The notes beneath the pieces were generated by a model. That model was not told the origin of the DNA. It worked only from the letters and a program-made list of their open reading frames with translations, and searched no databases. From positions 1 to 9,921 of the forward strand of contig SLGR01000240.1 of NCBI GenBank assembly GCA_007136585.1: a stretch of 9,921 bases of DNA. The letters are read 5' to 3'. The DNA comes from Candidatus Sumerlaeota bacterium. Its GTDB lineage: Bacteria; CG03; SLGR01. The position numbers were made by a program, and so were the translations under genes. Positions 1,054 to 9,921 of the stretch are shown here, one piece after another (positions within the stretch are counted from its first letter, which is position 1; each line of letters begins with the position of its first letter).

Positions 1054-3845
1054 AAATAACCTTTACACTTAACTCCAGGAGGGTAACCGTTGAGGCCGGC
1101 GAGTACGAAAAGGTCCTTCCTCTCCTTAAAAGGCTTAATATACGATCGGTCAGGAAAGGGTGCGACGAGGAGGGAAAATGCGGCAACTGTTCAATAATAC
1201 TTGACGGGAAACTTGTAAACTCCTGTCTTTTAATCGCCCCACAGATAGACGGAAGGACCGTTGAGACCGTTGAATCCCTTTCCGGGGGGCCAGGGCTGAG
1301 CCGACTGCAGGAGGCCTTCATAAAAGCCGGGACAGTGCAGTGCGGATACTGTACCCCTGCCCAGCTCCTGGCCGCAAAGGCTCTACTTGATAAAGTGAAA
1401 GACCCCACCAGGGAAGAGATACGCGAGGCCTTCGGGGGGGTCGTCTGCCGCTGCACCGGGTACGCAAAATTCTTTAACGTCTTTGAGATACTCAAAGGCA
1501 GGTCCCCTAAAGATTTTACCCCGGAGTATAAAAAAGAGTACAAGGTCGTAGGAAAGATAACAGATAAGATAGACGCCGTACAGCAGGTGAGGGCGGAGCC
1601 CTCTTACGTGGAGGATTACGTCAGCCCCGACGCATGCCGCCTTTATATCCTCAGAAGCCCCCATCCCCACGCGGAGATAATATCCATAGATACCTCGGAA
1701 GCGGAAAAAATGCCCGGGGTTGAGTTTATACTTACCCATAAGAACTCCCCGAAAAATTTCTACACACAGGCCGGGCAGAGTTACCCCGAACCCTCCCCTT
1801 ATGACAGGCAGGTAATAGGAAAGAAGATGAGGGTCATAGGCGACAGGGTTGCCGCGGTGCTTGCCGGAACACTTGAGGAGGCCGAAGCCGCCGCCAGGAA
1901 GATAAAAGTCCGGTACAAGTCCCTTGAGCCGGTATTTACGATTGAGGACGCGCGCCGGAAAGGGGCTCCCGTCATACATAACCGGGATACTTCCATCGAC
2001 CCCCTGTATATCGGAGGCGACCCCTCAAGGAACCTCGTCTGCCATAACAGCGGGGGGATTGGCGATACTGAAAAGGGGTTCAGGGAATCCGAACTTACAG
2101 TTGAAAGGACCTGCAGGACCCCGAACGTCCAGCATACCCCGATGGAGCCCCATACGGCCTACGCCTATATGAAAAACGGGCGCCTGGTCATACACTCCTC
2201 CGTTCAGACCCCTTATCACGTAAGGAGGATAGTATCCGGGATCCTCGGTCTCAGCGAGAACAGGGTAAGGATCATAAAGGAAAAAGTCGGCGGAGGGTAC
2301 GGGGCCAAGCAGGACTGCGGCGTTGAGGATATAGTCGGAACCGTCGCATATCTCTCCGGGAAACCCGTTTACTACCGTATGACCCGGCGTGAAGAATTTG
2401 TTGTCCGGACCAGGCCCCCTCTCCATATTACCGTAAAAGCGGGGGCGGATAAGAACGGCAACCTTAAAGCCATAAAGATAAACACCCTCTCCGATACGGG
2501 GGCTTACGGGCCCCACTGCCTAACTGTCCCTATGAACGGGTGCTCAAAAACCCTGCCGATGTTCACCTGCAAAAATATGTCCTATGAGGTAAAATCCTAC
2601 TATACAAACAATATAGTCACCGGGGCCTACCAGGGGTACGGGGTGCCCCAGACCAATTTTGCCGTCCATATGGTCCTGGCGGAACTCGCCAAAGGGCTGG
2701 GTATGAGTTTTGAGGATTTCATAGCAAAAAACCTTGTAAAAAAAGATTATAAGCTTGATATCCTCAAGCAGCTCGGGGAGGGAACCGAGGGGCTGGCCCA
2801 GAAGATCTCAAGCTGCGGACTGGGCGAGTGCATAGAAAAAGGCCTTAAGAGATACAGGAAATGGAAGAATAACAAATACCCTGCCTCCGGAGATTACGTT
2901 CAGGGCAAGGGTATGGCCGTAATGATGCAGGGCTCCGGGATCCCCGGGATAGATTCTGCCAACGCAATGATAAAGATGATATCAGACGGGACATTTATGC
3001 TTTATATAGGCGGGGCAGACCTCGGAACAGGCGAGGATACCGTTGCCGCTAAAATAGCGGCTGAAGAACTCTGTGTTACACAGGAACAGATCGCGGTAAC
3101 CTCGGCGGATACGGATACAACTCCCTTCGACAAGGGCTCGTACGCCTCAAGCGGAACCTTCTTCACGGGAAACGCCTCATACAGGGCCGCAAACAATATG
3201 AGGAAACTTATCATAAAGGCGGCTGCCGATATCCTGAGAGTGAAGAGATCCGATATAAAAATCGGAAACGGGAAAATAACAGCCGGCAGGAAAACCCTGA
3301 CCTATAAAGACCTGGCCTACAAGACCCAGTCCGGTTCAGGGTGCGGGCAGCTTATAGCCACGGGGGCCTTTACTACCGAACAATCCCCGATCCCGTACGC
3401 GGCTCATTTTGCCCAGGTCACAGTAAACAGGCGAACAGGGATAATAAAAGTGGATAAGTATTACGCTCTCCACGACTGCGGTATCCCCGTAAACCCCGAC
3501 CTGGCGGAAGGGCAGGTCTACGGAGGGATTATGAAAACAATAGGCCACTCTCTCTACGAGGCTGTAGAGTTCAATGAAAAAGGGATATGCCTGAACGCGG
3601 ATTTCACCAACTACCCGGTACCCGGGATCAAGGACCTGCCGGAAGAGATTGATGTTGAGCTCATAGAGGTAGATGACCGCATAACCCCTTACGTCGGAAA
3701 ATCAATATCAGAGATCGCCTGCAACGGAGCCGCCGCCTGTATAGCGATGGCGGTAAACGATGCCCTCGGGATATGGTTAAGGGAATGGCCTTTCAGGCCC
3801 GAGAAGTTACTGGCTGCCCTTGAGGAAGCTGAGAAAAATACCTGA
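1050..3845 (+). CDS. Fused [2Fe-2S]/molybdopterin hydroxylase subunit, XdhD (YgfN)-like
   Basis: A 931-residue fusion of the small Fe-S subunit and the large Mo-binding subunit of the xanthine dehydrogenase family. Residues 1-75 hold a plant-type [2Fe-2S] domain with C38, C44, C47 and C59. Residues 85-150 hold the second cluster domain with C98-x2-C101 and C133-x-C135. From about 165 to the end is the Mo-pterin region, with GGGYGAK (414-420), GAYQGYG (525-531), GGADLGTG (654-661) and a C-terminal GKSISE whose E888 aligns with the catalytic Glu of the family. GAYQG replaces the usual GAYRG, and GTG replaces the Mo-contacting GQG. As I recall its sequence, E. coli YgfN shares both changes and much of the C-terminal region, so I place this protein in the selenium-dependent xanthine dehydrogenase/putative selenate reductase group. 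The selenium would be a cofactor ligand, so no selenocysteine codon is expected and none is seen. The substrate is probably a purine or another N-heterocycle, but unproven. An AGGAAGGG SD lies upstream. Confidence 0.9.
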   Translation: MKITFTLNSRRVTVEAGEYEKVLPLLKRLNIRSVRKGCDEEGKCGNCSIILDGKLVNSCLLIAPQIDGRTVETVESLSGGPGLSRLQEAFIKAGTVQCGYCTPAQLLAAKALLDKVKDPTREEIREAFGGVVCRCTGYAKFFNVFEILKGRSPKDFTPEYKKEYKVVGKITDKIDAVQQVRAEPSYVEDYVSPDACRLYILRSPHPHAEIISIDTSEAEKMPGVEFILTHKNSPKNFYTQAGQSYPEPSPYDRQVIGKKMRVIGDRVAAVLAGTLEEAEAAARKIKVRYKSLEPVFTIEDARRKGAPVIHNRDTSIDPLYIGGDPSRNLVCHNSGGIGDTEKGFRESELTVERTCRTPNVQHTPMEPHTAYAYMKNGRLVIHSSVQTPYHVRRIVSGILGLSENRVRIIKEKVGGGYGAKQDCGVEDIVGTVAYLSGKPVYYRMTRREEFVVRTRPPLHITVKAGADKNGNLKAIKINTLSDTGAYGPHCLTVPMNGCSKTLPMFTCKNMSYEVKSYYTNNIVTGAYQGYGVPQTNFAVHMVLAELAKGLGMSFEDFIAKNLVKKDYKLDILKQLGEGTEGLAQKISSCGLGECIEKGLKRYRKWKNNKYPASGDYVQGKGMAVMMQGSGIPGIDSANAMIKMISDGTFMLYIGGADLGTGEDTVAAKIAAEELCVTQEQIAVTSADTDTTPFDKGSYASSGTFFTGNASYRAANNMRKLIIKAAADILRVKRSDIKIGNGKITAGRKTLTYKDLAYKTQSGSGCGQLIATGAFTTEQSPIPYAAHFAQVTVNRRTGIIKVDKYYALHDCGIPVNPDLAEGQVYGGIMKTIGHSLYEAVEFNEKGICLNADFTNYPVPGIKDLPEEIDVELIEVDDRITPYVGKSISEIACNGAAACIAMAVNDALGIWLREWPFRPEKLLAALEEAEKNT

Positions 3846-8471: not shown

Positions 8472-8508
8472 CCCTTATAATTTGATTTTCATTATGATAT
8501 TATAAAGG
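8472..8508 (-). repeat. Inverted repeat able to pair over the propeller ribosome binding site
   Basis: On the minus strand CCTTTATAAT (8508-8499) can pair with ATTATAAGGG (8481-8472) through ten pairs including one G-T. The 3' arm contains AAGGG, the only Shine-Dalgarno-like word before the TTG start of the propeller gene. A transcript starting upstream of 8508, for example from the neighbouring IS, would include the full hairpin. The sequence is AT-rich, so chance pairing is a real alternative. Confidence 0.3.
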
Positions 8509-8534
8509 TATATTAAAAGTCAAGCATAATGAAA
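8487..8534. repeat. 10-bp inverted repeat flanking the propeller promoter
   Basis: TTTCATTATG (8487-8496) and CATAATGAAA (8525-8534) are perfect inverted copies with a 28-bp gap. The gap contains the proposed -35; the left arm overlaps the proposed -10. The right arm ends 6 bp before the IS end. It may be an operator pair or chance in AT-rich DNA. Confidence 0.35.
8494..8523 (-). promoter_or_regulatory. Possible sigma70-type promoter of the propeller-PorV genes
   Basis: On the minus strand TTGACT (8523-8518) is a 5/6 match to a -35 box. TATCAT (8499-8494) lies 18 nt further on, with an alternative TAATAT (8502-8497) at 15 nt. The surrounding 60 bp are very AT-rich. The proposed start point would be about 27 nt before the TTG start codon. 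The -10 assignment is ambiguous because several TATA-like words overlap. Confidence 0.45.
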
Positions 8535-8540
8535 GAGACC

Positions 8541-8563
8541 GAAGCAAGAAAAACTTTGTGGTA
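8541..8563. repeat. IS left terminal inverted repeat
   Basis: The 23-bp repeat begins GAAGCAAGAA and ends TTGTGGTA. It is a perfect inverted match to 9896-9918. The transposase TGA begins at the very next base on the inside. A GGCACAC word lies 7 bp further in (8571-8577) and recurs inverted near the other end, so it may be a subterminal transposase-binding site. Confidence 0.95.
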
Positions 8564-9826
8564 TCAAACCGGCACACCCCTTGCTGCCCAGTACTTGTCC
8601 CACTCACCGTTCAGCTTTAATAGCCTCAAAGATAAAAGACTTGATAAGCCCGGGCGAATCCAGCTCATCCCTCTCTTTTTAAACCTTCTTGCAATTGTAA
8701 TGTCTACTGTCTTCTCAATTGCCCCACTTGCTCCGAGGCATTTTACTTTCTTCCAATTCTCTATTCCTTCTTCATTGCTTTTGACATAGCCGTAAAGTTT
8801 TTTAAGTCTTTCCTGTAAATCCGGATCTCTGATCCTGACATACAGACTTCTGATTCTCTTGAGAAGCAGCCGGGCATTACTAGTAGTTTTAACTTCAGCT
8901 ATCCAGTTGTCAGCTGCACGTTTATGATCTTCTCCAAGAGCCCTTGTAATATTCTGAGCCAGGTGCCAGAAATCCAGAAGATAAACAGCTCCCGGGAAAT
9001 CGTATTTACACATCTTTTTTATCCATGATGCGCCGTCAGCCACATACAGTATCTCTTCGGCGTCCCACACACCCCAACCGGTACACTCGGCTATGAACTC
9101 TTCCCTGAAGGAATCTATGTTACCTACCGTAGCGTATGTTCTTTTATCCAGTATCCTGAATCGGTTTTTACTCACTTTCGCCTTTTCTGAGTAAATGACT
9201 CCTACCTTACATTCGACCGATCCCGGCTTGCTCCGGTCTTTTACAAATGTGCCGTCAACCTGGACAAAAACTCGCTTTCTCTTTTCTTCACTTTCAGGAA
9301 TACAGTTATCATCAAAGATCTGCTCTCTTTTTCTTCTGACTGATTCCTGAACCTTTTCACCTTCTTCCTTAGCCCAGTTCTGTATCTGGCGGCCGCTCAG
9401 TTCTATTCCTGTCAGTTTCTTTAAGTTATCCGCGGCCTTATCATACGCCGTATCTGTCGCAAGATAAAGAGTCTTCTCCTTCAACCCGAGCGTTACGTTT
9501 CCGTTTTCCTGAAGACCGAGAACCTCATCCAGGGGATATCTCTCTTTGCCGCAGGTACAGCATTTAAATCGTGTCCTTGCATATTGAACTTCTCCGACTA
9601 TCGTAGTAATTTTTCTTCTTACTCTTCCGATATTCTTTAATCGTCCTCCGCATAGACAACTTCTTTCCAGGTTACTCAGTTCATATTCTTCAATTCCCCG
9701 AATAGAATCCCTGAGCAGTCTTTCACCCAAATCACGTGTTGTTTCAAAGATCTTCTTCTCTACAAGATTGATGTCAAAGTCATTGATATTTACTTCGACC
9801 TTATCTTTTACTAAAATCTCTTTCAC
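8564..9826 (-). CDS. DDE transposase, ISLre2/ISKra4-like (UPF0236-related)
   Basis: An intact transposase of 420 residues from the GTG at 9826. I prefer this start because AAGGAG lies exactly 7 nt upstream; an in-frame TTG at 9850 would add 8 residues but has no ribosome binding site. Numbering from the GTG, a cysteine-rich probable zinc ribbon comes first (C57, C59, then C89, C90 and C92). It is followed by YPLDEVLGL (97-105) and a helix-turn-helix-like stretch (LTGIELSGRQIQNW, 138-151). The catalytic acids are probably D191 in VDGT, D264 in ADGASW and E371 in GAIEKTVD. LLDFWH (283-288) follows the second Asp. The C-terminus KKRGMSW...GEWDKYW is typical of the group. It catalyses movement of the surrounding IS. 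No frameshift or internal stop is seen, so the copy may be active. Confidence 0.9.
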   Translation of the reverse strand: MKEILVKDKVEVNINDFDINLVEKKIFETTRDLGERLLRDSIRGIEEYELSNLERSCLCGGRLKNIGRVRRKITTIVGEVQYARTRFKCCTCGKERYPLDEVLGLQENGNVTLGLKEKTLYLATDTAYDKAADNLKKLTGIELSGRQIQNWAKEEGEKVQESVRRKREQIFDDNCIPESEEKRKRVFVQVDGTFVKDRSKPGSVECKVGVIYSEKAKVSKNRFRILDKRTYATVGNIDSFREEFIAECTGWGVWDAEEILYVADGASWIKKMCKYDFPGAVYLLDFWHLAQNITRALGEDHKRAADNWIAEVKTTSNARLLLKRIRSLYVRIRDPDLQERLKKLYGYVKSNEEGIENWKKVKCLGASGAIEKTVDITIARRFKKRGMSWIRPGLSSLLSLRLLKLNGEWDKYWAARGVPV

Positions 9827-9827
9827 G

Positions 9828-9878
9828 GGCACACTCCTTTCTTGTTTCAATGACTAACAAGATTTTACAGAGTGTGCC
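9828..9878 (-). promoter_or_regulatory. Hairpin sequestering the transposase ribosome binding site
   Basis: On the minus strand GGCACACTC (9878-9870) is perfectly complementary to GAGTGTGCC (9836-9828), which contains the GAG of the AAGGAG Shine-Dalgarno. One T-G pair extends the stem. Inside it CTTGTT (9861-9856) pairs with AACAAG (9846-9841) around a 9-nt loop, giving a two-part hairpin. Only RNA begun outside the element contains the whole 5' arm, because the internal promoter has that arm in its spacer. Confidence 0.7.
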
Positions 9879-9890
9879 TGTTTTTATCAA
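9862..9890 (-). promoter_or_regulatory. Transposase promoter, near-consensus sigma70 type
   Basis: On the minus strand TTGATA (9890-9885) and TAAAAT (9867-9862) are each 5/6 matches to consensus with the ideal 17-bp spacer. Transcription would begin near 9854-9855, about 28 nt before the GTG start and 15 nt before the AAGGAG. It lies wholly inside the IS, just within the right terminal repeat. Confidence 0.75.
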
Positions 9891-9895
9891 TTACC

Positions 9896-9918
9896 TACCA
9901 CAAAGTTTTTCTTGCTTC
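9896..9918. repeat. IS right terminal inverted repeat
   Basis: Perfect inverted copy of 8541-8563, lying next to the transposase promoter. The inverted GGCACAC word (read as GTGTGCC at 9872-9878) lies further in and doubles as the 5' arm of the ribosome-binding-site hairpin. The window ends three bases outside this repeat. Confidence 0.95.
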
Positions 9919-9921
9919 TGA

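Follow-up and report, generated by a model that had tools for sequence, protein, structure and literature searches.

The insertion sequence at the end of the 9,921-nucleotide contig analysed here (SLGR01000240.1 of a Candidatus Sumerlaeota bacterium, hereafter the window) carries an inverted repeat around the start of its transposase gene, and the question is what this repeat does. In IS10 and IS50, a fold-back structure hides the transposase start in RNA that is started externally. The sequence-only reading of this locus had proposed a switch of the same kind, in which RNA entering from the flank would be silenced and RNA from the element's own promoter would be translated.

The element spans positions 8541-9918 on the minus strand (ca 1.38 kb) and is bounded by perfect 23-bp terminal inverted repeats (8541-8563 and 9896-9918), a trait of ISLre2 elements. 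Its transposase gene (8564-9826, minus strand, GTG start at 9826-9824) encodes 420 amino acids with a match to Pfam UPF0236 (E 2e-27). The score is 194 bits with the NCBIfam ISLre2 model NF033529, just under the cut-off of 200, and 172 bits with the ISKra4 model, for which the cut-off is 205; because the former lies under its cut-off, the family name is kept at ISLre2-like only. The contig stops 3 bp beyond the right end of the element (9919-9921) and two further contigs end within copies of it, which means that the element occurs in more than one copy and interrupts the assembly. Contigs C15 and C244 also carry left ends of it. Left ends of other, related IS types are found at 3653-3776 of G000:C49 and 1-130 of G004:C147 (L004, L013); these have the same terminal sequence followed by GGGGCAC, and their transposase starts are not in the assembly.

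At its left end, the tip of the window element lies 17 bp from a target promoter, TTGACT-N18-TATCAT (8475-8540, minus strand). Seven left-end junctions could be compared, namely this one and those on C15, C244, C49, L010, L013 and L037, and the -35 box of a sigma70-like promoter was found at an offset of 17 in six of them and of 18 in the seventh. The 3' end of the transposase gene faces the target -35 box, and the transposase and the target gene run in the same direction. ISLre2 is described to insert 15-17 bp upstream of the -35 box of sigmaA promoters in a fixed orientation (PMC3942029), and this behaviour is seen at 7/7 junctions of the window type. The element is thus promoter-targeting, and the junctions also indicate that the hosts use sigma70-like consensus promoters. 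Since the transposase promoter faces the upstream neighbour, sense read-through would be an expected hazard.

The predicted transposase promoter (9862-9890) is TTGATA-N17-TAAAAT, with 10 of 12 consensus matches, in which the -35 box occupies 9890-9885, the 17-bp spacer 9884-9868 and the -10 box 9867-9862; transcription is predicted to start at A9855. The outer 5' arm of the hairpin, GGCACACTC (9870-9878), lies within the spacer, and the 3' arm, GAGTGTGCC (9828-9836), overlaps the Shine-Dalgarno sequence AGGAG (9834-9838), which is located 7 nt 5' of the GTG codon. Together they form an outer stem of 9 bp with a tenth pair, U9869-G9837. The inner 5' arm TCTTGTT (9856-9862) ends just ahead of the predicted start and pairs with AACAAGA (9840-9846), giving a stem of 7 bp by folding, or 6 bp without the first U-A pair. 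All of these features are on the minus strand, and re-reading of that strand confirms the positions that the sequence-only reading had given for the promoter, the arms and the Shine-Dalgarno sequence: the 9-bp stem (10 bp with U-G) and the inner stem are exactly placed over the latter, and the outer 5' arm is indeed inside the spacer. The transcription start had been put at ca 9854, one nucleotide from the start predicted here, and the location of the 5' arm upstream of the predicted start stands. With a start at A9855, the native RNA would therefore contain neither the outer nor the inner 5' arm.

The minimum free energy of 9828-9890 was calculated to be -21.7 kcal/mol (z -4.8), and a longer stretch of 132 nt has a z of -3.5; for both, none of 200 shuffled sequences was equally stable. 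The cost of opening the region from the Shine-Dalgarno sequence to the start codon was calculated as 15.0 kcal/mol for RNA that begins at the tip of the element, against 2.7 kcal/mol for RNA starting at 9855, that is, the start region is predicted to be open only in the native RNA, as the earlier proposal had it and as is typical of IS10. When only the DNA upstream of the Shine-Dalgarno sequence was shuffled, the observed cost was reached in 1 of 2000 cases.

The closest full relative, L010, is located on the Elusimicrobia MAG contig PWEK01000033.1, and its transposase is 59% identical in protein sequence. The right end of L010 is laid out in the same way, with a TTGAAA-N17-TAAAAT promoter at the same place as in the window, GGCACACC in the spacer and AGGAGGTGCGCC before the ATG codon; the CTTGTT part of the inner 5' arm is invariant and directly precedes the predicted start. 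Two pairs of the stem are changed on both sides relative to the window (U-A to C-G and C-G to U-A), so the compensatory changes that the proposal calls for are present in a related copy that keeps the promoter. One pair of the L010 sense stem has turned into an A.C mismatch, and additional outer pairs form. The opening cost follows the pattern of the window element (12.3 kcal/mol for read-through and 4.7 kcal/mol for native RNA). Scans of genome contigs and viral contigs gave no close relative besides L010 (= L046) and fragments, and covariation for the window element therefore rests on one homologue; a copy that loses the pairing and keeps the promoter was not seen among the close relatives. 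The lone right end L033 (1489-1580, G004:C102), from a genome that shares its order, but not its family, with the window source, is near-identical to the window element up to AAAGGAGT and then continues into unrelated DNA. It is a shortened copy or one-ended remnant, and was rejected as an informative copy since it is a fragment in which the 5' arm is kept and the 3' arm is lost after the Shine-Dalgarno sequence.

We have also considered the 5' regions of 22 elements of the ISLre2 type, which come from plasmids, phages and genomes, with 84 ordinary genes, taken from only two plasmids and the window, as controls. The hairpin is not peculiar to the window element but recurs in ISLre2-type elements, in most of which the predicted 3' arm covers the Shine-Dalgarno sequence and extends to the start codon. 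The median opening cost is 10.6 kcal/mol for the elements and 2.8 kcal/mol for the control genes. With burial defined as a cost of more than 8 kcal/mol, the Shine-Dalgarno sequence is buried in 19 of the 22 elements and in 1 of the 84 genes (p 3e-11; as the sample is limited in size and includes some redundancy inside clades, this and the following p-values overstate independence). It could be argued that the palindrome of the window arose by chance in a single element, for which nothing speaks beyond the scarcity of close relatives; the shuffling result makes this hard to accept, and the recurrence across the family refutes it, leaving it a negligible probability. Aligned arms consist of 90% Watson-Crick pairs, and in one clade four pairs are altered on both sides, which was matched by 4 of 500 shuffles. 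With the exception of L121r, a partial case, all elements that have a sense hairpin show a predicted sense start past the entire 5' arm; these promoter scores come from an E. coli model. L113 has no hairpin. In L115, the sense hairpin is degraded and the antisense hairpin is retained (-29.5 kcal/mol); at 1219-1293 of this Lacticaseibacillus paracasei ISLre2 copy, C.A mismatches of the sense strand are G.U pairs on the antisense strand. Four plasmid ISKra4 elements showed no such fold, with opening costs of 0.1-4.9 kcal/mol.

The arm sequences of different clades were found to have little or nothing in common, as can be seen from GGACTCTCTCCCT in a Geobacillus ISGsp3-like element, GAAATAACTCTCT in Ligilactobacillus, GAGACCTCACC in G404, GGGTTACTCCTT in pTB19 and AGAGAACACC in a faecal phage scaffold. 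This bears on another option, namely that the repeat is a DNA site bound by the transposase or a repressor. The motif GGCACAC does occur near both ends in the window element and L010; at the other end, it lies ca 31 bp inwards from the IS tip. However, the left-end GGCACAC codes for GVP, which is conserved at the C-terminus of the transposase, related left ends read GGAACAC or GGAACCC, and the arms of the other elements share no motif and are nevertheless complementary. The subterminal GGCACAC was judged to be mostly coding and was rejected as a binding site, and we consider a DNA site to be very improbable.

The opposite strand, which the sequence-only reading had missed, carries signals of its own. 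In the window, a predicted promoter TTTACT-N17-TAAAAT (9789-9817, plus strand, 9 of 12 matches) in the first transposase codons would start transcription at ca 9824, at the base of the hairpin. The resulting RNA of ca 62 nt (9824-9885, plus strand) is predicted by folding to form a hairpin of -25.7 kcal/mol, with a terminator-like run of five T behind it (9881-9885, plus strand) that corresponds to the minus-strand A-tract beside the 5' arm. The plus strand thus reads the hairpin and then TGTTTTT; in L010 it is followed by TTTTTATTT. Cofolding gives a full duplex between this RNA and the 5' end of the native mRNA. A predicted antisense promoter in the gene start together with a terminator-like signal upstream of the predicted mRNA start, as in IS10, is therefore present in the sequence, and an RNA-OUT-like antisense RNA opposite the transposase start is probable. 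No Rfam family, RNA-OUT included, matched the hairpin of the window element or of eight relatives. In Ligilactobacillus acidipiscis pLAC2, just downstream of the ISLre2 element (L114, 2544-2880), there are Rfam matches to the RatA antitoxin RNA and to rli28 on opposite strands.

The antisense signals also recur in the family. A run of at least four A beside the 5' arm, i.e. the antisense T-tract, is present in 18 of the 22 elements, compared with 14% expected (p 1e-12), and it is kept in L086, L048 and L114, where no recognisable -35 box includes it. A sigma70-like antisense promoter is predicted at the aligned place in L010 (TTTACA-N17-TACAAT), and also in L012 (TTGACT-N17-TATACT) and in L083 and L106 (TGATATAAT). 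Antisense -10 sites located 5-9 nt from the start codon have a mean score of 6.7, compared with 1.0 ± 0.5 at other positions of these genes. The antisense promoter scores, which come from the same E. coli model, are above those of 78 control genes (p 2e-5), with values of at least 8 in 9/21 elements and 3/78 genes. In the GC-rich L076 and L022, no antisense promoter was found.

Two simpler explanations have to be weighed against this evidence. If the hairpin were a fold-back lock only, with the terminator-like appearance of the other strand as a by-product, this would account for the buried Shine-Dalgarno sequences, for the 3' arm that reaches the start codon and for the free native RNA. It would also fit an element whose insertion 17 bp upstream of promoters in the same direction exposes the transposase promoter end to the upstream neighbour. 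What it leaves unexplained is the conserved T-tract where there is no -35 box and the peak of antisense promoters, and we regard it as unlikely. Conversely, the selected feature could be the antisense terminator or RNA only, with the sense hairpin as its passive mirror image, which is consistent with the T-tract, the antisense promoter, the retention of only the antisense hairpin in L115 and the antisense RNA described for IS256 (PMC10266640). The pairs in the arms comprise 312 Watson-Crick, 8 sense G.U and 12 antisense G.U pairs, and the pair statistics do not tell which strand is selected; sense G.U pairs, which break antisense pairing, are nevertheless also present. Moreover, an antisense function would not need the element's own predicted start to lie just past the 5' arm, as it does in nearly all elements. 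This second option appears to us somewhat less likely still than the first.

Our preferred reading, to which we assign a probability of roughly 0.6, is that one palindrome would combine both functions, a fold-back lock against read-through RNA and an antisense RNA, in the manner of IS10. Read-through RNA from outside, if it occurs, would carry the 5' arm, the Shine-Dalgarno sequence would be buried and translation would not take place. RNA from the element's own promoter would start past the 5' arm, leaving the Shine-Dalgarno sequence free for translation. The promoter on the opposite strand would, if it works, produce the hairpin RNA of ca 60 nt ending at the T-tract, and this RNA could pair with the 5' end and the Shine-Dalgarno sequence of the native mRNA, such that the transposase falls as the copy number rises. 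The proposed read-through lock of the window element is supported by the survey and by L010, and the mechanism as a whole is plausible from these predictions, better supported than the first reading of the DNA could know, and of a known kind, that of IS10.

In IS10, RNA-OUT is an antisense RNA of 69 nt, of which 35 nt are complementary to the translation start, and repression of the transposase by it has been shown by others (PMC5006887). As a positive control, the same computation on IS10 gave 8.5 and 3.2 kcal/mol and recovered the known RNA-OUT hairpin. In both IS10/Tn10 and the window element, a single inverted repeat surrounds the start of the transposase gene and the element's own start is inside the loop, and in both, by prediction in the window, the 5' part of the transposase gene gives an antisense hairpin RNA of ca 60-70 nt and read-through RNA buries the start. 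The sequences are unrelated, the IS10 transposase being of the IS4 family and the present one Mutator-like, and unlike in IS10 a canonical T-tract ends the antisense hairpin in the window.

IS256 is a distant relative within the Mutator superfamily and has the same fold over the Shine-Dalgarno sequence (10.5 and 1.9 kcal/mol), but it belongs to another family (p-MULT 1) and is without promoter targeting. According to the accessible text of PMC10266640, its antisense RNA has a sigma70 promoter, lies over the start and lowers Tnp-GFP in E. faecalis; loss of the RNA raises Tnp-GFP but lowers, rather than raises, circle formation, so the link between antisense RNA and transposition is not simple. 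A fold-back is not described in that text. The same type of fold was found in IS905, ISEf1 and an L. brevis element, weakly in IS16, and not in IS1414. In IS50/Tn5 the start is hidden in externally started RNA, as predicted for the window element, and we know of no antisense RNA of the IS10 kind there. In IS200, a stem-loop in the 5' part of tnpA hides the Shine-Dalgarno sequence and a separate antisense RNA, art200, acts on tnpA (PMC12594629); that stem-loop is in the native transcript, whereas the native transcript of the window element should lack the hairpin. ISPpu9, of another family, has an antisense RNA and a 5'-UTR structure at the transposase start (Asr9/Ssr9; PMC8450116), but Asr9 stimulates translation. 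Short antisense RNAs overlapping transposases are also described in Listeria (rli23, rli25 and rli35; PMC4374534). For ISLre2, no description of hairpin or antisense control was found in the literature searched, which is thin in subscription journals; for antisense in ISLre2, the one paper found was a survey of general scope on the insertion sequences of plant pathogens. As far as this literature shows, control of the IS10 type would thus be new for ISLre2.

Finally, ISLre2-like elements are widespread and insert beside promoters, which raises the question of how they avoid activation by transcription from their neighbours. At about even odds, in our estimate, the palindrome with lock and antisense RNA may be a module of Mutator-like elements (ISLre2-like, part of the IS256 family) in which the letters of the arms are free and which is independent of IS10. 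If true, such a module, conserved in shape and free in sequence, would explain how transcription from neighbours is avoided. It provides small-RNA predictions for many cultivated species, among them Geobacillus, Enterococcus and lactobacilli, and would represent an instance of convergence with IS10, which simple RNA-seq can check.
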